In this document: positions 7,879 through 18,162 of the stretch, piece after piece
Layout: the number at the start of each line of letters is the position of its first letter
Numbering within the stretch: position 1 is the stretch's first letter
Notes under the pieces: model-generated
The model's database searches: none
Seen by the model: only the letters and a program-made list of their open reading frames with translations
Told to the model about the DNA's origin: nothing
Assembly (NCBI GenBank): GCA_016791445.1
Contig: JAEUMP010000010.1
Coordinates: forward strand, 62,001-126,000
Direction: 5' to 3'
From: Hyphomonadaceae bacterium
GTDB taxonomy: Bacteria; Pseudomonadota; Alphaproteobacteria; Caulobacterales; Aquidulcibacteraceae
DNA length: 64,000 bases
Position numbers and translations under genes: made by a program

Positions 7879-8949
7879 ATGGCCAACCTATCCCTCTCCC
7901 GCGTCTTGCAGGTCCTCGATCGTTTCGATGCGGTCGAGGCGCGCCTCGGCGCCACCATGGATTCCGCCGAGATCGTGAAGCTCTCCAAGGAGCGCGCCGA
8001 ACTCGAACCCGTCGCCGCCGTGATGCGCACGCTGATCGACGCACGCAAGGAAGAAGAGGATCTCGAGGCCCTCGCCGCCGATCCCGAAATGGGCGCGATG
8101 GCGAAGGAAGAACTCGTGGCGCTCCGCGCGCGCCTGCCCGAACTCGAACGCGCTGCGCAATTGATGCTGCTGCCGAAGGACGAAGCGGAAAAGGCGTCCG
8201 CCATTCTCGAAATCCGCGCCGGCACTGGCGGGGAGGAGGCGGCGCTCTTCGCGGGCGATCTCTTCAAGATGTACTCGAAGTACGCGGCGTCCCGTGGCTG
8301 GAAGGTCGAGATCGAGGACATGAGCGAAAGCGATCTCGGCGGCTACCGCGAGATCGTGGCGAGCGTCACGGGCGAGGGCGTGTTCGGGCGCCTGCGCTTC
8401 GAAAGCGGCGTGCACCGCGTCCAGCGCGTCCCGGAAACGGAAACGCAGGGTCGCGTGCACACCAGCGCGGCGACGGTGGCGGTGCTGCCGGAAGTCGAGC
8501 ACGTCGATATCGAGATCAAGGACGCCGACATTCGCATCGACACGTTCCGCTCCTCCGGCGCGGGCGGCCAGCACGTCAACAAGACGGACTCCGCCGTGCG
8601 CATCACGCACCTGCCCACGGGCATCGTCGTGACCTCGAGCGAGAAGTCCCAGCACCAGAACCGCGCCAGGGCCATGAAAGTCCTGCAGGCGCGCCTCTAT
8701 GACCAGCAGCGCGAGAAACTCGACCGCGAGCGCGCCTCGGACCGCGCCGCCCAGGTGGGCTCCGGCGATCGCAGCGAACGCATCCGCACCTATAACTTCC
8801 CCCAGGGCCGCGTGACCGATCACCGGATCAACCTCACGCTCTACAACCTGCCCGAGATCATGGCCGGGCCGGCGCTCGACGAGGTGATCGAGGCGCTCCT
8901 CGCCGAAGACCAGGCCAAGAAGCTCGCCGCGCTCGACGCCGGCGGCTGA
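7879..8949 (+). CDS. prfA: peptide chain release factor 1
   Basis: RF1 terminates translation at UAA and UAG. The 356-residue protein has the stop-codon recognition tripeptide PET at 185-187 in [15 protein letters not shown] (P-x-T class, hence RF1 and not the SPF class of RF2), and the universal GGQ at 229-231 in [10 protein letters not shown], whose Gln is methylated by PrmC. The start ATG 7879 ([11 protein letters not shown]) matches normal RF1 length; the frame is open far upstream through the EamA gene, but that is a shadow. In many alphaproteobacteria prmC directly follows prfA; here prmC is about 8 kb away at 16924, beyond two TonB receptor genes. Confidence 0.95.
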
Positions 8950-8982
8950 ATTCGGCCTTCGCATCTGCGGAAAATTCGAACC

Positions 8983-9025
8983 TGCACTATGGCGGCCAAT
9001 TCGATGGACCGTCCGTCATAGTGCA
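8983..9025 (+). promoter_or_regulatory. inverted repeat between prfA and the TonB receptor
   Basis: TGCACTATG-G-CGG at 8983-8995 faces CCG-T-CATAGTGCA at 9013-9025: 13-base arms with one mismatch and a 17-base loop. It lies 34 bases after the prfA stop. There is no T-run, so an intrinsic terminator is unlikely; an operator or structured 5' leader for the downstream receptor is possible. Confidence 0.35.
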
Positions 9026-9090
9026 TTCGCGCAATACTTTTCCATTAATTTCAAAACCCGCTATGCAGCGCCGAAAATTTTGGCCATGGT

Positions 9091-9141
9091 TCCCGCAGCG
9101 GAAGACGAACGATCCACCGGGTCGGCGCGCTGCGGGAGGAA
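9091..9141 (+). promoter_or_regulatory. hairpin sequestering the TonB-receptor ribosome binding site
   Basis: TCCCGCAGCG (9091-9100) is the perfect reverse complement of CGCTGCGGGA (9128-9137), with a 27-base loop. The 3' arm contains the first bases of the strong Shine-Dalgarno GGGAGGAA (9134-9141) that serves ATG 9148. If it forms in the mRNA it would reduce translation, giving a handle for an sRNA or other trans factor. This is a sequence observation; function is inferred. Confidence 0.45.
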
Positions 9142-9147
9142 GCAAAC

Positions 9148-12100
9148 ATGCGCAAGAACGCGAACGGGAAGGGTGTGTCCTGGCTGGCATTGGCTGCCGC
9201 GGTCGGGATCGGGGGCTATGTCGACAATGCGGAGGCACAGAGCGCCCCGCAGGCCCGGGAAACAGACGAAATCGTCGTCACCGGCTCGCTGATCCGGGGC
9301 ACGGCGGAAACGGCGGCGCTGCCCGTCGACGTCATCACCGAGCAGGATCTGCGCGATCAGGGGTCGCCGACCACGCTCGAACTCATCAAGTCGCTGCCGG
9401 CGAGTCAGGGCGTCCTTGGCGACACCAACCAGTTCGACAGCCGCGCGCAGGGCTCCGAAGGCTCGGGTTCGGTGAACCTGCGCGGCCTCGGTCCGCAACG
9501 CACGCTCGTCCTGCTGAACGGCCGGCGGATGGTCATCAACCCGTTCGCCCTCGCGGGCGCGGGCGCAGTCGACACGAACATGATTCCGTCCGCCGCCATC
9601 GGACGGGTGGAAGTGCTCAAGGACGGCGCGGCCGCAACCTACGGCTCTGACGCCATCGGCGGCGTGGTCAACTTCATCACGCGCAAGAATTTCAGCGGTT
9701 TCGAAGTCGGCGGCAACTACAAGTACGTGGACGGATCTGACGGCGACTACGCGGTCAATGCGGCGTATGGCTGGCAGGGGTCAAACGCCGATTTCCTCGT
9801 CACGCTCGGCGTGCAGCACCGTTCGGAACTCGGCGTGCTTGAGCGCTCGTTCGCCACGCAATCCTATCTGTCGAGCCCGCAGGGCGGCTATTCAGCGGCA
9901 GGCATGCCGGCGAGCTTCATCCCGTTGGGTCTCAGCTCCAACCGTGCGCGCGATCCCGGTTGCGGCGCCGTGGGCGGAACGCCCGGCCTGACCGGCGCGC
10001 CGCCTAGTGTCACGCCGGTCTGCTACTGGAACTACACGCAGTTCGACAACCTCACCGAGCTTGAGGACCGGTATCAGATCTACTCCGAGCTCAACATAGA
10101 CATTTCGGAGAAGACGAAACTGCACGTGGAAGGCCTCTACGGCTACACGTCGGTGCCTGAGTGGAAGACGTCGCCGTCCTACGCGCTGCTGCAGGGGCCG
10201 ACGGCGCTGACCAATCCGGTTTCGCCGGGCAACTACTTCGTGCCTGGTCCGACTGCGCTGTTCGCCGGCTCCGTCGCCAACCCGGGCCTCGTGAACTTCA
10301 TCGCCGCCAATCCCGGCGGCGTTCCGGGCGTGGTCTCCGCCACCGGCGCGGCCAGCACCATCCCGATCGCGGCGTTCAACCCGGGCGCGCTCTTCATCGC
10401 CGGCCGTCCATATGCGCTCGGCGGCAACCCGCTCTTCAATTTCGGCGCGTCCGAAGGGGAGCGCGAATACACGGCCATGCGTCTGTCGGCGTCGCTGACC
10501 AGCGAATTCGACAACGGCATCGGTTGGGACCTCGCTGCGACCTACATGGAAGAAGAGGCCTTCCGCACGGGTCGCGACACCGTCGTGAACCGCTTCCAGC
10601 GCGCGCTGCGCGGTCTCGGCGGCCCGGCTTGCCCGACCACCGGCGGCACGCCGGGCGTCGGCGGCTGCTTGTGGTTCAACCCCTTCGCGTCAGGCGTGCC
10701 GGGCAACGCCATCACCGGCGTCGCCAATCCCGGCTACCTGCCGGCGCTGGCGAGCAACAACAACCGCGATCTCATCAACTGGTTCTTCCCGGAGCAGTGG
10801 AACCGCTCCACGGCGAAGCTCTTCGTCGCCGATCTCGTCTTCAACGGCGGGACGGGCATCGAACTGCCGGGCGGCGAAATCGCCTGGGCCCTCGGCACGC
10901 AGTACCGGCACAACAACTTCAAGGTGCGGCTGAGCGACATCAACAACCTGCGTCTCAACCCGTGCATCGACTCGCCTGATTTCGGTGTGATGAACTGCGC
11001 GATCCCGACCGGCGCCACCGGCTTCCTCGGCGGCGGCTACGAGTCGGATCTGACCAACAGCCAGACCGCCTTCTTCGGCGAATTGCGGGTGCCCGTCACG
11101 TCGGCGTTCGAAATGCAGATCGCGGCGCGATATGAAGACTACGGCGGCCAGGTCGGCTCGACTTTCGATCCGAAAATCTCGGCGCGCTGGCAGATCTTCG
11201 ATGCGCTCGCCCTGCGCGCATCTGCCGGCTCCACTTTCCGCGGTCCAGCGCAGACGGCACTCGCACCCGGCAGCGTGACCAGCCTGCAGGACGTGCTCGG
11301 CACCTTCCCGGCGGTCGACATCTTCGGCAATCCCGGCCTCAAGCCGGAAACGGCCAACACCTACAATGTCGGCCTGATCGTCGAGACGGGCGGCTTCACG
11401 GGCACCTTCGACCTGTGGCAGTTCGATTTCGAAAATCCCATCATCAGCGAACCGCTTGGCGGCATGGTCGCGACCATGTTCCCCAACGGCGTCGGCGTGC
11501 CGAACAACTGCGGCAATCCCGCCTTCGCGGCGCTGCAGGCGCGGTTCACCTTCAACTCCTTCGGCTGCGGCGGCGCCAACGTCATCCGCGTCGCGACGAA
11601 TTCGGTGAACGGTCCAGCGGTGAAGAATTCCGGCCTCGACGTTTCGCTCCAGTATGACTGGAACGACATCGGCGGGCTCGACTTCACGATCGGCGGCGCG
11701 GCCTCCTACATCCTCGAATACACGGTGGACGCGACCACCGTCGCGGGGGTCGTGGTGTCGCGCGCGTTCAATGCCGTCGACAAGCTCAACTACCAGACGC
11801 AGGTCGTTCCGATCCCGCGCTGGAAGGGCAACGCGTTCATGCAGTTCGCGACCGAGCGTCAGAACCTGCGTCTGGGCGTCACTTACATCGACGACTACGT
11901 CGACCAACGCACCGCGCCGTACATCGCCACGCTGGCCACCAACAACACGGTGATTTCCGCCGGCAAGACGATCGACGCCTTCGTGACGTTCGATGCGGTG
12001 TACCGGATGAACCTCACCGAAGGCCTGTCGTTCACCATCGCCGGCGAGAACCTCGCTGACGAGGACCCGCCGTTCGCGCGTCTCGACCTGAACTACGACC

Positions 12101-12165
12101 CCTTCACCGCCGACCCCATCGGTCGGACCATCAAGGTCGGTCTGAACTATCGCTTCGGCGGCTGA
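9148..12165 (+). CDS. TonB-dependent outer-membrane receptor (1005 residues)
   Basis: Outer-membrane active transporter energised by TonB-ExbBD. An N-terminal signal sequence ends near DNAEAQSA; the TonB-box-like DEIVVTGS follows at about 38-45. The plug domain holds VDVITEQDLRDQG, LRGLGPQRTLVLLNGRR and VEVLKDGAAATYGSDAIGGV, and the rest is a large beta-barrel ending in the aromatic-rich strand VGLNYRFGG. EIVVTGSxIR with AAATYGSDAIGGVVNFITR is characteristic of the large receptor subfamily expanded in Caulobacter, sphingomonads and xanthomonads, which import oligosaccharides, peptides or siderophores. The ligand is not predictable. The start is fixed by GGGAGGAA and the signal peptide. A strong terminator follows the stop. 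Confidence 0.9.
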   Translation: MRKNANGKGVSWLALAAAVGIGGYVDNAEAQSAPQARETDEIVVTGSLIRGTAETAALPVDVITEQDLRDQGSPTTLELIKSLPASQGVLGDTNQFDSRAQGSEGSGSVNLRGLGPQRTLVLLNGRRMVINPFALAGAGAVDTNMIPSAAIGRVEVLKDGAAATYGSDAIGGVVNFITRKNFSGFEVGGNYKYVDGSDGDYAVNAAYGWQGSNADFLVTLGVQHRSELGVLERSFATQSYLSSPQGGYSAAGMPASFIPLGLSSNRARDPGCGAVGGTPGLTGAPPSVTPVCYWNYTQFDNLTELEDRYQIYSELNIDISEKTKLHVEGLYGYTSVPEWKTSPSYALLQGPTALTNPVSPGNYFVPGPTALFAGSVANPGLVNFIAANPGGVPGVVSATGAASTIPIAAFNPGALFIAGRPYALGGNPLFNFGASEGEREYTAMRLSASLTSEFDNGIGWDLAATYMEEEAFRTGRDTVVNRFQRALRGLGGPACPTTGGTPGVGGCLWFNPFASGVPGNAITGVANPGYLPALASNNNRDLINWFFPEQWNRSTAKLFVADLVFNGGTGIELPGGEIAWALGTQYRHNNFKVRLSDINNLRLNPCIDSPDFGVMNCAIPTGATGFLGGGYESDLTNSQTAFFGELRVPVTSAFEMQIAARYEDYGGQVGSTFDPKISARWQIFDALALRASAGSTFRGPAQTALAPGSVTSLQDVLGTFPAVDIFGNPGLKPETANTYNVGLIVETGGFTGTFDLWQFDFENPIISEPLGGMVATMFPNGVGVPNNCGNPAFAALQARFTFNSFGCGGANVIRVATNSVNGPAVKNSGLDVSLQYDWNDIGGLDFTIGGAASYILEYTVDATTVAGVVVSRAFNAVDKLNYQTQVVPIPRWKGNAFMQFATERQNLRLGVTYIDDYVDQRTAPYIATLATNNTVISAGKTIDAFVTFDAVYRMNLTEGLSFTIAGENLADEDPPFARLDLNYDPFTADPIGRTIKVGLNYRFGG

Positions 12166-12198
12166 TCGCCTCCGCAGCACCCTACGGAAAAACCTGCG

Positions 12199-12232
12199 AG
12201 GCCCCTCCTGATGGAGGGGCCTCTTTCTTTTC
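12199..12232 (+). terminator. intrinsic terminator after the TonB receptor
   Basis: Perfect 10-bp stem AGGCCCCTCC (12199-12208) / GGAGGGGCCT (12213-12222), loop TGAT, followed by CTTTCTTT. It ends the plus-strand receptor transcript and separates it from the convergent minus-strand operon. Confidence 0.9.
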
Positions 12233-12256
12233 CGTCGGAAGCCGGGGGAGACTTGC

Positions 12257-13249
12257 TCAGCGCGAGGGCGGCAGGGCGCGGCGTGTCTCGGCGTCGATCT
12301 TCGCACGCGCTTCGACGATGGCGGCTTCGGTCGTGATCTCGCCGCTGTTGATGCGATCGGCGAGACCCATGAGGACGGGGCCGGTGACGGCGCCGTTCTG
12401 CGCTTCCTCTTCGATCGTCACCCCGCGTCCGCGCGCAATGGCGGCGTCCCACGCGCCGCGCACGGCAGCCCAGTAGTCCTTCGTCTTCGACCAGTAGCTG
12501 TCGGCGGCGGCGACATCGTAGGCATCGTACTTCGTGTAGGTGTTCACGCCGTCCTCGTGCACAAACGTGGAGATGGCGCCGTTCACGAGTCCGAGCTTTG
12601 CATTGTCCTGCTCATGCACCCAGCCGGCCGGCGTGATCGCTTGGCGATTGATGGCGCTGTAGCGGTCGTAGGCGGGATTGCGGATCGCATCGCGACGCGC
12701 GAGCGGGCGCATGGTGACCTCGCTTGTCCAGACAGCGGCGCCCGTGTCGTACGACCAGCGGCCGACGCCGCCATAGCGCGGGGAGTCTTCCGTCTGCCAG
12801 ACCGTCTGCGCCCACGCGCCTTGACGTTCGCCCCGGGACACCGGCGTCAACGTCCAGCGGTTGCGCGACGTGTAGGTCAGCACTTGCGTTGGCTCGTACG
12901 TCCAATCCTGGCGCCAGTGCTTGATGACGTGCGTCTTGCCCTCGTGCGTCACCACAAGCAGGTGCTGCAGTGAAATGAAGCGTCCGGTATCGGCGATAAC
13001 GCGCACCACTTCATGCCCGCCGCTCAGCTTCGGCTCCAGCGGCGTGTAGTCGGCGCGGAACGCCGTCGTCTCGCGGAAATCGAACCGGACCTTGTAGTCG
13101 CCGGCCATCGCGAGGATCGACTGTCGATCCTGCGCATAGCTCGAAGGTTGCGCCGCGACGCCCGCAGGAAGCGCGATGGCGAGCGCCGCGGCGATGAGAC
13201 CGGCCGCGACGGCGCCGCGACGGGTCATCATTGGTGAAAGGGACTGCAT
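12257..13249 (-). CDS. DUF6607-like secreted protein, partner of the heme-type receptor
   Basis: 330-residue exported protein, ATG at 13249 with a strong GGAGGAG upstream. The signal peptide (GLIAAALAIALPAGVAAQP) is cleaved near residue 34. The mature part is rich in Trp, Tyr and Arg and contains HVIKHWRQDWTYEP, RWTLTPVSRGERQGAWAQTV and WVHEQDNAKL. These resemble, from memory, the DUF6607 family that accompanies TonB receptors; I could not confirm this by search. The gene begins 46 bases after the receptor stop on the same strand, so the pair is almost certainly one transcript under the Fur-like operators at 15501-15543. A role in ligand capture or processing in the periplasm is inferred from position only. 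Confidence 0.6.
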   Translation of the reverse strand: MQSLSPMMTRRGAVAAGLIAAALAIALPAGVAAQPSSYAQDRQSILAMAGDYKVRFDFRETTAFRADYTPLEPKLSGGHEVVRVIADTGRFISLQHLLVVTHEGKTHVIKHWRQDWTYEPTQVLTYTSRNRWTLTPVSRGERQGAWAQTVWQTEDSPRYGGVGRWSYDTGAAVWTSEVTMRPLARRDAIRNPAYDRYSAINRQAITPAGWVHEQDNAKLGLVNGAISTFVHEDGVNTYTKYDAYDVAAADSYWSKTKDYWAAVRGAWDAAIARGRGVTIEEEAQNGAVTGPVLMGLADRINSGEITTEAAIVEARAKIDAETRRALPPSR

Positions 13250-13295
13250 GTGCTCCTCCTTGGGTTCGTGCGCTTCCGGGGCACGTCGGTTGAAA

Positions 13296-15461
13296 TCAGT
13301 AGCGGACGGTCAGCGAGGCGCTGACATTGCGGCCGGGCTGCGTGTAGGCGTCGATGACGGTCGATGTCGGCGACAGCCCGCGCACGTCGCTCCACCACGC
13401 GTAGTCCTCGTCGAGCATGTTGAAGACGCCGATCCGCAGCGTCGCGAAATCGACGGGCGACCAGTATGCGGTGAGATCGACAAGACCGAACGCCGGCGGC
13501 CGGTACGATCCGCCCGCTTCGCTGAACTTCTTCCGGTCTGAGTGCGTGTAGCTCAGCTGCCCGCCGAAGCGCCCGCCCGGATCGCGATAGCCGAGCCCGC
13601 CGACCACCTTCACCGGATCGATGCTGAGCAGGGGCGATTCCACGCCGAGACGGCGCTGGTCGCCGTGCGCCGTCGAAATCGCGAAATTGAAGGTCACGCC
13701 GTTCGTCCACAGCATCTGCACGCGCGCTTCCGCGCCGGTGATGTCGACTTCGCCGAGATTGACGAACTGGTAGATCGCCGGATCGAGCGCGGTGAAGGAG
13801 CCGGACACCAGCACCTGCTCGATGAAGTCGTCATATTTTCCGGTGAACGCAGCGGCGCTCGCCGTCAGCGCTCCGCCGAGCACGGATACATTGCGCATGC
13901 GCGCGCCGGCCTCAAACGTCGTGCTGGTTTCGGGCCGCAAATTCGGATTGGGCAGGGCGGTGTAGAACTGTACGGGGTTCGCGAAGCCGTTGTTCACCTG
14001 CGATGGCGAGGGCGCCTTGAATCCTTCAGCGTAGTTCGCAAAGAAGCCGAACTGTTCGCTCGCCCAGAATACAAGGCCGAGCTTCGCCGATACATGATCG
14101 TCGTCCTGTGGCGCAAGCTGGCCCACATAGAGCGCATCGCGCTCGGGCTCGAGCTTGTAGGAATCGTAGCGCACCGCCGGCACGACATCGAGCCGGTCAT
14201 CGAAGAGCGTGATCGTGTCCTGCACGAAGACGCCGGCGAGCGTATAGTCCGTGTTCGGGAACGAGCGGGTGGGATAGACTTCGCCGACGGGAGGGAACGT
14301 GCCGGTGCGCAGTCCTTCCTGACGCGTCACGGAGTAGTCGCCGCCGTAAACGAAGGCATGCGTCGCGCCCGCCCACCCGAAGCGGCTCTCCGCCTGCGCG
14401 CTCAGCCCGCGCACTTCATTGTCGAACGTGTTGTCGCGGATGCGGTCCGCGAGGATCGTACGCTCTTCGGCGGAATACTGCCGCGTGGCGGAGGTCTGCT
14501 GGTAGATCGTCGCCTGTGCTTCATCGATGAAGCCGTCGCCGCGATAGCGGTAGTCGAGGCTGAATCGATCGCGCTCCGTTTCGTCAAGCGCGAGCAAGCC
14601 TGCCGTGGAGGCGGAGACCGCGCTCAGGACATTGGAGTCAACGTTCCTGTCCACATGGTCCCAGGTGAAGCGCACGCGGTGCGCCGCCGAGGGCGTGAAA
14701 ACGAGTTTGCCGAGGAAAGCATTCGAAACAACATCCTGCGGGACCGGCGTCGTCCGCGCGGCGCTGGCGGTGTTGTTGACGCCCTGGTTGTCAAGTTCAT
14801 GACCGTCGCGGCGCGTGTACGCGAGAAGGGCGGAGAACGCGCCGGCGCGGACGGCGCCCGAAATGCCTTCGCTGAGGCTCTCGTCCGCCGAAGCGTAGCC
14901 GACCCGCGCACGCGAGCCGAACTGCCGGTCGTCCTTCAGGAAGTCCTCCGGATCCTTCGTGATAAAGCTGACGGCGCCCGCGAGCCCGTCGCTGCCGTAG
15001 AGCGCCGACGCGGGCCCCCGCAGGATTTCGACAGATTTCAGGAGATCGAGATCGGCGTAATCGCCGCGACCAACGGACTGCGCGCCGAAGTAGAAGGCGT
15101 CCGGCGCGCGGATGCCGTCCACCTGGATCAGCACGCGATTGCCCTCGAGGCCGCGAATATTGAAGCCGCTCGCGCCGTCACGCCCCGTCGTGCTGAGCGC
15201 GGCGGAAAACCGCGCCGGGCTCTGGCGGACTGACACGCCCGGCTCGAAGCGCACGAGGTCCTTGATGTCGTCGGCCAGCTGGTCGGCGATGTCTTCGTCG
15301 GTGAGGACGGTGACGGTCGCCGGCACGTCCAGCGCCGCGCGCGCCGATTTCGTCGCCGTCACCGTGATCGGATCGGCCGCTGCGTCATCCGCCGCCGCCG
15401 CGCCAGAGTGCAGGGCGAGTCCGAGCGCTGTCAGGCTCGCCGCCATCCCCAATCGTCGCAT
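13296..15461 (-). CDS. TonB-dependent heme/hemoglobin-type receptor
   Basis: 721-residue outer-membrane receptor. The signal peptide ends near GAAAADDAA; a TonB box-like DPITVTATK follows; the plug contains VTVLTDEDIADQ, FNIRGLEGNRVLIQVDGI and LRGPASALYGSDGLAGAV. In the barrel, FKAP followed by NPNLRPETS is the FRAP/NPNL signature of heme and hemoglobin receptors (HmuR/HemR type), with a conserved Phe/Tyr context suited to heme. The last strand ends SASLTVRY. The start ATG 15461 is preceded by GAGGG. Tandem Fur-like boxes lie 40-82 bases upstream. Import of heme iron is the best hypothesis; no heme ABC transporter or heme oxygenase lies in this window. Confidence 0.85.
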   Translation of the reverse strand: MRRLGMAASLTALGLALHSGAAAADDAAADPITVTATKSARAALDVPATVTVLTDEDIADQLADDIKDLVRFEPGVSVRQSPARFSAALSTTGRDGASGFNIRGLEGNRVLIQVDGIRAPDAFYFGAQSVGRGDYADLDLLKSVEILRGPASALYGSDGLAGAVSFITKDPEDFLKDDRQFGSRARVGYASADESLSEGISGAVRAGAFSALLAYTRRDGHELDNQGVNNTASAARTTPVPQDVVSNAFLGKLVFTPSAAHRVRFTWDHVDRNVDSNVLSAVSASTAGLLALDETERDRFSLDYRYRGDGFIDEAQATIYQQTSATRQYSAEERTILADRIRDNTFDNEVRGLSAQAESRFGWAGATHAFVYGGDYSVTRQEGLRTGTFPPVGEVYPTRSFPNTDYTLAGVFVQDTITLFDDRLDVVPAVRYDSYKLEPERDALYVGQLAPQDDDHVSAKLGLVFWASEQFGFFANYAEGFKAPSPSQVNNGFANPVQFYTALPNPNLRPETSTTFEAGARMRNVSVLGGALTASAAAFTGKYDDFIEQVLVSGSFTALDPAIYQFVNLGEVDITGAEARVQMLWTNGVTFNFAISTAHGDQRRLGVESPLLSIDPVKVVGGLGYRDPGGRFGGQLSYTHSDRKKFSEAGGSYRPPAFGLVDLTAYWSPVDFATLRIGVFNMLDEDYAWWSDVRGLSPTSTVIDAYTQPGRNVSASLTVRY

Positions 15462-15500
15462 GACTTCTAGCCCTCAACGTGATCGTTGGAGGGGCTTTAT

Positions 15501-15543
15501 TGCGATTAACTCGCAAATGCAAGGTTAATGCGAGTCAATCGCA
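15501..15543 (-). promoter_or_regulatory. tandem Fur-like operators upstream of the heme-type receptor
   Basis: Two 15-base inverted repeats, TGCGATTAACTCGCA (15501-15515) and TGCGAGTCAATCGCA (15529-15543), each have 7-1-7 symmetry with TGCGA/TCGCA ends. Start-to-start spacing is 28 bases. They lie just upstream of the minus-strand receptor gene, consistent with iron-dependent repression by Fur or a related regulator (Irr and RirA boxes differ). Confidence 0.6.
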
Positions 15544-15569
15544 ATTCCGTTGGGTGCGGGCCCTTGCAT

Positions 15570-16850
15570 CTAGTTGAACACGGGGAAGAAGTGGCCGCCT
15601 GCGTGGAGCAGAAGCCCCACGAGACCGCCGATGATCGTGCCGTTGAGCCGGATGAACTGCAGGTCGCGGCCCACATTCTGTTCGAGCTTTTGCACCACGG
15701 TGTCGGCGTCCCACGCTCGGATCGTCTCCGAGACCAGCCGCGACACGTCCGCGCCGTGACGGTCCGCGAGTTCGACGACGAGGGCGCGCAGGCGCTCGTT
15801 CAGCGCTTCGCGCACGGCGGCGTCTTCGGTCAGCCCCTTGCCGACACGCTGAAGGCCCTCGACCGCCCACGCGCGCAGCTGCGAATCCTCGCGCGCGAGA
15901 TCGGCGCGGAGGGCTGCCTTCACATGCGACCACGCCGCGTCGAGCGCCTCCGACACCGCCGGATGCGAAAGCACGTCCTGCGTCATCGCGCTGATGCGCG
16001 CATGCATCGCCGGATCGTTCTTCAGCTCATCGGCGAAGCGCGAAAGGATTTCAGTGACGCGCTTGCGCAGGGGATGATGCGGATCGCGCGCGGTTTCGGC
16101 GATGAGGTCTTCCATCGCGCCGATCATGGCGTCGGAGGCTTGCGCATCCACCGACAGCATGCGCCAGAGCCATCCCGTGCGATTGCGCACGCGCGCGCGG
16201 ATCGGCTCCTGGTTTTCTTCCAGCCATTTCCAGCCTTCCGCGAGCGCGGCGTCGAGCAGCATCTGGTGTTTTCCCTGCGCCGCCAGCGCTTCCAGCATGT
16301 TGCCGAAAGCAGGCGCGATCTGCTGCGAGGCGAGCGGACTCGACGCCTGCTTGCGCAGGAACGCGGCGACGGTCTCGTCGTCGAGTGTGTCGAGGATGGC
16401 GGGTACGGCGCCGACGACGCCATCGGCGATCCTGGTGACCTGATCGGGATCGGAAAGCCACTTGCCGAGGGCGAGCGCCATGTCCTGCTTGGCGACGCGT
16501 TCGTGCACGAGCGAAGGCGCGAGGAAGTTCTCCGCGATGAACGCGCCCAGCGCGTCGGCGATGCGGCCCTGGCTTTTCGGGATGACGGCTGTGTGGGGGA
16601 TCGGCAGGCCGAACGGGCGGCGGAAAATCGCGGTCACGGCAAACCAGTCCGCCAGCCCGCCGACCATCGCCGCTTCCGCGAACGCGCGCACATAGCCCCA
16701 GCTCATCTGGTCGCCGCCGAAGAGGTGCGCGACGATGTAAAGCAGCGTCATCGCCACCAGCAGGCCGGTGGCAGCGCGGCGCATGCGCACGAGAGATGGC
16801 GGATCCGGCGCCCGCGGCACGAGCGCAAGGTCGGGTGTGGTCAAACTCAT
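15570..16850 (-). CDS. DUF445 family membrane-anchored protein (YjiN-like)
   Basis: 426 residues from ATG 16850, preceded by GGAGG; the longer ATG at 16877 lacks this. The N-terminus has a membrane segment (ATGLLVAMTLLYIVAHLF) and the conserved DUF445 block AFAEAAMVGGLADWFAVTAIFRRP plus GLPIPHTAVIP. A long helical region follows with repeated DUF445 modules. A C-terminal helix (TIIGGLVGLLLHAGGHFF) ends in a second membrane segment, with FIRLNGTIIGGLVG conserved. The molecular function is unknown; the long coiled region suggests an envelope-spanning or scaffold role. It is transcribed away from prmC. Confidence 0.85.
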   Translation of the reverse strand: MSLTTPDLALVPRAPDPPSLVRMRRAATGLLVAMTLLYIVAHLFGGDQMSWGYVRAFAEAAMVGGLADWFAVTAIFRRPFGLPIPHTAVIPKSQGRIADALGAFIAENFLAPSLVHERVAKQDMALALGKWLSDPDQVTRIADGVVGAVPAILDTLDDETVAAFLRKQASSPLASQQIAPAFGNMLEALAAQGKHQMLLDAALAEGWKWLEENQEPIRARVRNRTGWLWRMLSVDAQASDAMIGAMEDLIAETARDPHHPLRKRVTEILSRFADELKNDPAMHARISAMTQDVLSHPAVSEALDAAWSHVKAALRADLAREDSQLRAWAVEGLQRVGKGLTEDAAVREALNERLRALVVELADRHGADVSRLVSETIRAWDADTVVQKLEQNVGRDLQFIRLNGTIIGGLVGLLLHAGGHFFPVFN

Positions 16851-16923
16851 GGGGCCTCCGGCGGCGACGGGCCGCATTCGGTCTTCAACGCGCGGGCCTA
16901 GAGCTAGGCGCCATAGCCCTTAT

Positions 16924-17799
16924 ATGGGCGCGATGACGCACACGCTTGTCTCCGCCTGGACGAAAGCCCGCCGCACCCTCGAGGCCGCCGGCGTGGAACT
17001 GCCCGTTTTCGATGCGCGCCTGCTTCTGGAAGCCGCGACCGGCGTCGCGCGTCTCGACATCCTCACCGATCCGCACCGGCCGATCGCCGAAGACGCCGCC
17101 GCGCGTCTCGACGCCCTCGTCGCCCGCCGTGCGGCGCGGGAGCCGGTCGCCTACATTCTCGGGAAGAAGGCCTTCTACGCCATCGACTTCGCCGTAGGCC
17201 CCGCAGTCCTCACGCCGCGTCCGGATACCGAGATGGTCGTGGAAGCCGCACTTGCGGCGCTGCCGGTAGATGCGCCCGCGCGCGTGCTGGATCTGGGGGT
17301 CGGCTCCGGTGCGATCCTCCTGTCGATCCTTTCTGCGCGGCCGTTGGCCAGCGGGATCGGCGTCGATGCAAGCCCGGAGGCGCTTGTATTCGCGGAGTCG
17401 AACGCTGCCGCGCTGGGGCTCACGCCGCGCGTGGTGATGCACCACGGGGACTGGGGGGCGGGCGTCGAGGGGCCGTTCGATCTCATCGTCTCCAACCCGC
17501 CCTATATCCCCACCGGCGACATCCCCGGCCTCGCGCCCGAAGTCTCGGTGCACGAGCCCCGGCTGGCGCTGGACGGCGGTGCGGACGGGCTCGCGGCCTA
17601 TCGCCGGCTCTGGCCGGACGTGGCGCGGCTTCTGAAGCCCGGCGGGCGGTTCTGCGTCGAGATCGGGATCGGGCAGGGGCCCGACGTTTCGGCCCTTGCC
17701 CGGGCCGCCGGCCTTGAGGTGGAGGCGATCAAGCCGGACCTGGCGGGCATCGCTCGGGTGGTCCTTGGGCGGCGGCCGCCGGCGGTTGCGGCGGGCTGA
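16924..17799 (+). CDS. prmC: peptide chain release factor N5-glutamine methyltransferase
   Basis: PrmC (HemK) methylates the Gln of the GGQ motif of RF1 and RF2. The 291-residue protein has an N-terminal helical substrate-recognition domain (about 5-90, with EPVAYILGKKAFY), the SAM-binding motif VLDLGVGSGAILLS at about 121-134 and the catalytic NPPY at 191-194. PEVSVHEPRLALDGG is also typical. ATG 16924 gives the usual length. It precedes the DUF4167 gene and clpB, the standard alphaproteobacterial order, but is separated from its substrate gene prfA by a block of receptor genes. Confidence 0.93.
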   Translation: MGAMTHTLVSAWTKARRTLEAAGVELPVFDARLLLEAATGVARLDILTDPHRPIAEDAAARLDALVARRAAREPVAYILGKKAFYAIDFAVGPAVLTPRPDTEMVVEAALAALPVDAPARVLDLGVGSGAILLSILSARPLASGIGVDASPEALVFAESNAAALGLTPRVVMHHGDWGAGVEGPFDLIVSNPPYIPTGDIPGLAPEVSVHEPRLALDGGADGLAAYRRLWPDVARLLKPGGRFCVEIGIGQGPDVSALARAAGLEVEAIKPDLAGIARVVLGRRPPAVAAG

Positions 17800-18162
17800 A
17801 GCCGACCCTCCTGAAAAAGGGGTTGGCGCGGGGCGCGCTGGCGGGTATCTTTGCCTATCGGCGGAATCGCCCGGAAGCCTTTCTGGACCCATGAAGGGTC
17901 CCCCGTCAGGGATGAGGCGGTCGGCGTCACGCCAGCTGCTCCAACGGCAAAGGTCATGTCCCGCGCGGTGTGCGTCAGTCGCGGGATTTCGTCCCGGCGC
18001 AGAACCGCCTCGGACGCCAGCCGAACGAACCCCGGCCCGGCCGGCCGGAACAACTGTCTTCGTGGACGATTGATCGAAGAGCTTTAGCGCAAGCGACCTG
18101 ACGCAAGTCTCCCAAACCCAACGACCATCGCCGGTCGCCCGTGGACGGGCGCGCGGCGCAAC
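17800..18162 (+). other. 363-base intergenic region, no gene identified
   Basis: No convincing ORF, RNA gene or terminator is seen. A short inverted repeat TCTTCG/CGAAGA with a 12-base spacer lies near 18057-18080, close to where a promoter for the DUF4167 gene would be expected. Frames open on both strands lack Shine-Dalgarno sequences and have atypical composition. Confidence 0.4.

Follow-up and report, generated by a model that had tools for sequence, protein, structure and literature searches.

A predicted hairpin over the Shine-Dalgarno sequence of a TonB-dependent receptor gene as a candidate translational brake in a Hyphomonadaceae bacterium

Introduction

Some translational repressor hairpins act by sequestering the Shine-Dalgarno (SD) sequence; the MS2 coat gene and the rpoS leader are examples. 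At rpoS the small RNA (sRNA) DsrA frees the SD by pairing with the 5' arm or loop. Among the TonB-dependent receptors, those of Caulobacter are under sRNA control, as an initial annotation of the present locus had stated and as SisA and ChvR bear out (PMC12559287, PMC6237742). The alphaR8 sRNAs of C. crescentus are described there as carrying the anti-SD core UUUCCUCCCU, which SisA uses to repress a TonB-receptor mRNA, and CrfA as a sponge of the alphaR8 family during carbon starvation (PMC12559287).

The locus studied here lies in a 64,000-nucleotide stretch of DNA from a Hyphomonadaceae bacterium (the window) and comprises a TonB-receptor gene whose own leader is predicted to fold over its SD. 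A literature search, mostly outside subscription journals, returned no relevant paper on TonB receptors with a hidden SD, an RNA thermometer or a cis-regulatory RNA.

Results

The features of the leader and the gene, with the evidence for each, are as follows.

9091..9100, plus strand: 5' arm TCCCGCAGCG, the intramolecular anti-SD (sequence, inverted-repeat match and fold)
9110..9124, plus strand: inner helix of the same hairpin, CGAUCC-acc-GGGUCG (predicted folds containing the segment)
9128..9137, plus strand: 3' arm CGCTGCGGGA, covering the first half of the SD (sequence and inverted-repeat match)
9134..9141, plus strand: SD GGGAGGAA, to which the alphaR8/MmgR sRNA has a complementary anti-SD core (sequence and duplex energy)
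9148..12165, plus strand: TonB-dependent receptor of 1005 aa, plug and beta-barrel (open reading frame; PF07715 and PF00593)

The arms are complementary at 10 of 10 base pairs with a spacing of 27 nt, and the 3' arm ends 10 nt before the receptor start codon, the ATG at 9148. This confirms the perfect 10-bp hairpin (9091-9100 with 9128-9137) that the initial annotation had placed at the ribosome site of the receptor, together with its claim that the 5' half of the SD is hidden, since the 3' arm overlaps the SD at 9134-9141. The predicted pairing goes further: U9090-G9138 forms an eleventh pair, so that five of the eight SD bases are paired in the hairpin, and in the fold of 9030-9165 the remaining bases, GGAA, pair with UUCC farther upstream, which leaves the entire SD paired. 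The SD is base-paired in the predicted leader fold in the manner of an SD-sequestering cis hairpin. The 47-nt element, a segment picked around the repeat, has a predicted fold of -27.2 kcal/mol (z -3.9; none of 200 shuffles as stable), in which CGAUCC/GGGUCG forms the inner helix.

One rival to a regulatory role is that a GC-rich leader folds by chance, the repeat happening to cover the SD, and that ribosomes load before folding, with no regulatory effect. In its favour, perfect inverted repeats that span 10 bp or more and have loops of 3-40 nt are as frequent in the window as in shuffled sequence (11, against a mean of 9.5 with sd 2.75 over 30 shuffles). The bare repeat is ordinary for the window; its position over the SD is what counts. 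Opening the SD of the window receptor is predicted to cost 11.2 kcal/mol, which 4 of 2000 shuffles equalled when the sequence upstream was permuted around a fixed SD and start; this and the other energies are nearest-neighbour estimates on short, isolated leaders. The value is the highest among 46 distinct genes scored in this genome (G000), namely 25 TonB-receptor leaders and 23 window genes with two counted in both, the starts being called by a simple script and 4 of 29 TonB-receptor matches and 28 of 51 window open reading frames being left out for want of a clear start and SD.

Homologues of the receptor occur across the order, with about 38 to 58% identity for the full-length matches listed. 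SD hiding reached p<0.05 in 16 of 92 leaders, window included (median p 0.44); the 92 are the listed matches that became loci automatically and 40 further ones, excluding the partial genes L020, L027, L036 and L037 and including cases in which one genome contributes a second copy, as well as two TTG starts that are dubious (L018, L138). In a 52-receptor tree, the window receptor forms one clade (SH-aLRT 91) with the genera g14 (L009) and g6 (L003-L008, L010), and all nine members belong to the hidden-SD class, defined by p<0.1 and an opening value above 7, limits fixed after the values had been seen. That label changes 6 times on the tree, compared with 15.1 times when labels are shuffled, a clustering that near-copies on the tree favour.

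Within the clade, SD opening is predicted to cost 12.3 kcal/mol in the g6 orthologue L006 (6 of 2000 shuffles) and 10.5 kcal/mol in the g14 receptor L009 (84 of 2000), whose tandem paralogue L144 gives 10.4 kcal/mol (161 of 2000). Ranked among the scored TonB-receptor leaders of its own genome, the window leader comes first of 25 in G000 and its orthologue first of 19 in G033 (g6; 11 of the 30 taken from 44 matches had no clear start and SD and were left out). The tandem pair of G015 (g14) ranks second and third of 15 (15 of the 30 taken from 34 matches left out likewise), a different receptor leader, L209, hiding its SD more. The shuffle tests of L006 and L009 and the ranks within G033 and G015 are independent of the initial annotation's choice of site.

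Beyond this clade the picture is mixed. The g25 leaders L082, L085 and L117 hide their SD too (p 0.010-0.015), with L011 at p 0.07, and a subgroup of g23 is borderline. SDs are mostly open or partly hidden in g29, g15, g20 and roughly half of the g23 leaders. In many of these open or partly hidden remoter leaders a hairpin stops a few bases 5' of the SD, and a hairpin in this position is possibly common across the receptor family. Clade-specific hairpins of this kind are seen in L015, L123-L130 and L133 (g29), where the loops are A-rich, and in L021, L023, L026 and L150-L152 (g15).

The letters of the arms behave differently from the masking. The leader block is nearly invariant within g6, where the intergenic sequence that precedes it is far less conserved, and a covariance model built on the leader has matches in 8 of 60 family genomes, all g6 (one match, L164 in G037, was left out of folding). 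One search with the model gave no match at the window hairpin, and an unfiltered search gave 9.3 bits (E 0.27). The model also matched 17796-17831 weakly and in part (15.1 bits, E 0.043); this site resembles a terminator-type hairpin that overlaps the stop of prmC, and it was set aside. Local similarity upstream of the SD between the window and the g6/g14 leaders was not significant (204 of 2000), nor was the shared GATCCACC, and covariation within the g6 leaders showed no excess over control (score equalled by 265 of 500 shuffles). Together these comparisons suggest that selection has acted on the hiding of the SD and not on arm sequence: either masking has been selected while the arms drifted, or it arose more than once. 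The initial annotation had made conservation in orthologues the measure of its hairpin, and here the outcome is split, as the repeat sequence is not conserved, SD masking is kept in the near clade, and masking is absent from most remoter homologues.

These data also weigh on the chance fold. The open SDs of most remoter homologues and the lack of covariation support in g6 speak for it; against it stand masking retained by all three lineages of the clade, the independent results for L006 and L009, and the high within-genome ranks of the orthologue leaders. We regard a chance fold as unlikely, yet as an explanation to be taken seriously.

The genomic setting supports the orthology of the window and g6 receptors, both of which lie at a prfA-prmC locus. 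In the window, prfA precedes the receptor, the hairpin lies between prfA and the receptor start, and the prmC match is at 16912-17769, 4.7 kb past the receptor; the g6 receptor of G033 directly follows a gene taken as prmC from inspection of its protein sequence alone. The g14 receptor of G015 is at another locus. In many bacteria prfA and prmC are directly adjacent; here (8949-17799) they are separated by the receptor, a DUF6607 gene, a heme receptor and a 435-aa open reading frame. An inverted repeat 3' of prfA (8983-9025, TGCACTATGGCGG/CCGTCATAGTGCA, 12 of 13 pairs, 17 nt spacing, no T-run) may be a terminator or operator; a promoter and terminator scan of 8900-9200 found no terminator-like site and nothing else.

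The heme receptor (13296-15461) is a second TonB receptor of the window, in the heme/hemoglobin family (TIGR01785/TIGR01786). A hairpin lies over its start region (15469-15496, minus strand), with an SD opening of 11.1 kcal/mol, second of the 46 genes; its SD is weak, so this value depends on the start call. Upstream, at 15500-15516 on the minus strand, is a near-perfect palindrome, TTGCGAGTTAATCGCAA, which resembles a Fur-type box.

The initial annotation had read the hairpin as allowing on/off translation, worked by a small RNA or ligand. For a version in which an sRNA binds the 5' arm or loop and thereby exposes the SD, the geometry fits: with the 5' arm blocked, the modelled SD opening of the window leader falls from 12.3 to 5.3 kcal/mol. 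Control of Caulobacter TonB receptors by sRNAs is moreover established (PMC12559287, PMC6237742). Against this, a 14-nt pattern complementary to the arm (at most one mismatch) occurs at two genome sites beyond the leader's own, compared with 10 for a reversed control pattern, and the alphaR8/MmgR sRNA pairs with the SD instead of the arm. A scan of the whole window at gathering score yielded 0 matches to Rfam models, cis-regulatory elements and riboswitches included, and at 8900-9300 the sole families to appear, a microRNA and a worm snoRNA, were far below cut-off. The switch was not supported: there was no Rfam match, the genome search for an activating RNA that could pair with the 5' arm found none, no temperature switch is predicted, and the one partner RNA identified, alphaR8/MmgR, pairs with the SD. 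An on/off switch is possible, with no direct support; control by an sRNA at the arm or loop we judge improbable.

The alphaR8/MmgR sRNA itself is present in this genome (L106, 1480-1558; RF00519, 50.8 bits, with the cut-off at 41) and above cut-off in all 17 genomes searched. A second, divergent alphaR8/MmgR-like candidate (L100, 1442-1529, minus strand; G000:C8:28419-28506) scores 31.3 bits, below cut-off, and carries TTTCCTCCC and a terminator-like hairpin. The 10-mer core UUUCCUCCCU is complementary to the SD GGGAGGAA, and its duplex with the window leader, at -19.6 kcal/mol, is the strongest among the 25 TonB-receptor leaders of this genome. Opening the sRNA site in the window leader is predicted to cost 14.6 kcal/mol, giving a net of -5.0 and rank 15 of 25. 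The SD, although complementary, is predicted to be inaccessible to alphaR8/MmgR, and a like loss is predicted for the orthologues of G033 and G015 (net -1.6, -1.3 and -1.2). As this sRNA covers the SD itself, it could only repress, and cannot turn translation on. By these model energies the hairpin should shield the receptor from alphaR8/MmgR.

An extension of this idea is that the leader is an escape device, its own anti-SD arm keeping the SD from the alphaR8/MmgR sRNAs that restrain other TonB receptors, with a different release signal and with the receptor outside the carbon-starvation (CrfA/Sis) circuit. Selection would then act on SD masking and not on sequence, which would explain the turnover of the arms between genera. 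We hold this to be a speculative reading, and a doubtful one.

An RNA thermometer would share the general layout, with the SD in the 3' arm, and the g6 arms have several G-U pairs against the SD; it was rejected as highly improbable, as the predicted free-SD probability of the window leader stays at 6e-10 to 3e-8 between 20 and 42 C and shows no sharp transition, that is, no SD release over the physiological temperature range, and there is no Rfam match to any thermometer family. An operator or terminator acting as DNA, which the position between prfA and the receptor start might suggest, is equally hard to credit given no terminator-like site in 8900-9200, arms 27 bp apart that end 10 nt before the ATG, and orthologues that retain SD pairing, not a palindrome.

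Discussion

We propose that the cis hairpin lowers translation initiation at the receptor gene, as a translational brake, and on these computations we give this reading a probability of roughly 0.55. The hairpin is probably a brake on this one TonB receptor, a reading supported by comparison, and the kind of element is well known. What the computation shows is that the SD is paired, that masking of this strength is rare, and that g14 and g6, the sister lineages, have kept it although their arms changed. In the proposed mechanism the anti-SD arm of the receptor mRNA would pair with the SD, giving lower translation initiation; the hairpin would form in the cell and reduce translation there. Release could come from an RNA or protein that acts in trans at the 5' arm or loop, from an RNA chaperone, or from ribosome loading before folding. 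The alphaR8/MmgR anti-SD sRNA would use the same SD bases, so that the hairpin would make the receptor a poor target.

The element resembles SD-sequestering cis hairpins in that the SD is paired with an upstream anti-SD arm and strong repression is predicted; it differs in that it is known here by prediction and that its arms vary in sequence between genera. A related system in the same order is ChvR-chvT, which likewise has a structured TonB-receptor 5' UTR, there under post-transcriptional control; ChvR represses by pairing at two sites, one near the SD, whereas no such partner was found here (PMC6237742). The alphaR8 sRNAs SisA-D/MmgR (RF00519) of Caulobacter crescentus have a target of the same SD sequence class as here, with the anti-SD supplied in trans and repressing, whereas the window leader carries its anti-SD in cis, where it should compete with the sRNA (PMC12559287). 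If the brake is real, one of many TonB receptors would be restrained in cis through exactly those bases at which a conserved family of anti-SD sRNAs acts in trans, and the locus would allow a simple test of how folding in cis determines the mRNAs that are open to an anti-SD sRNA.
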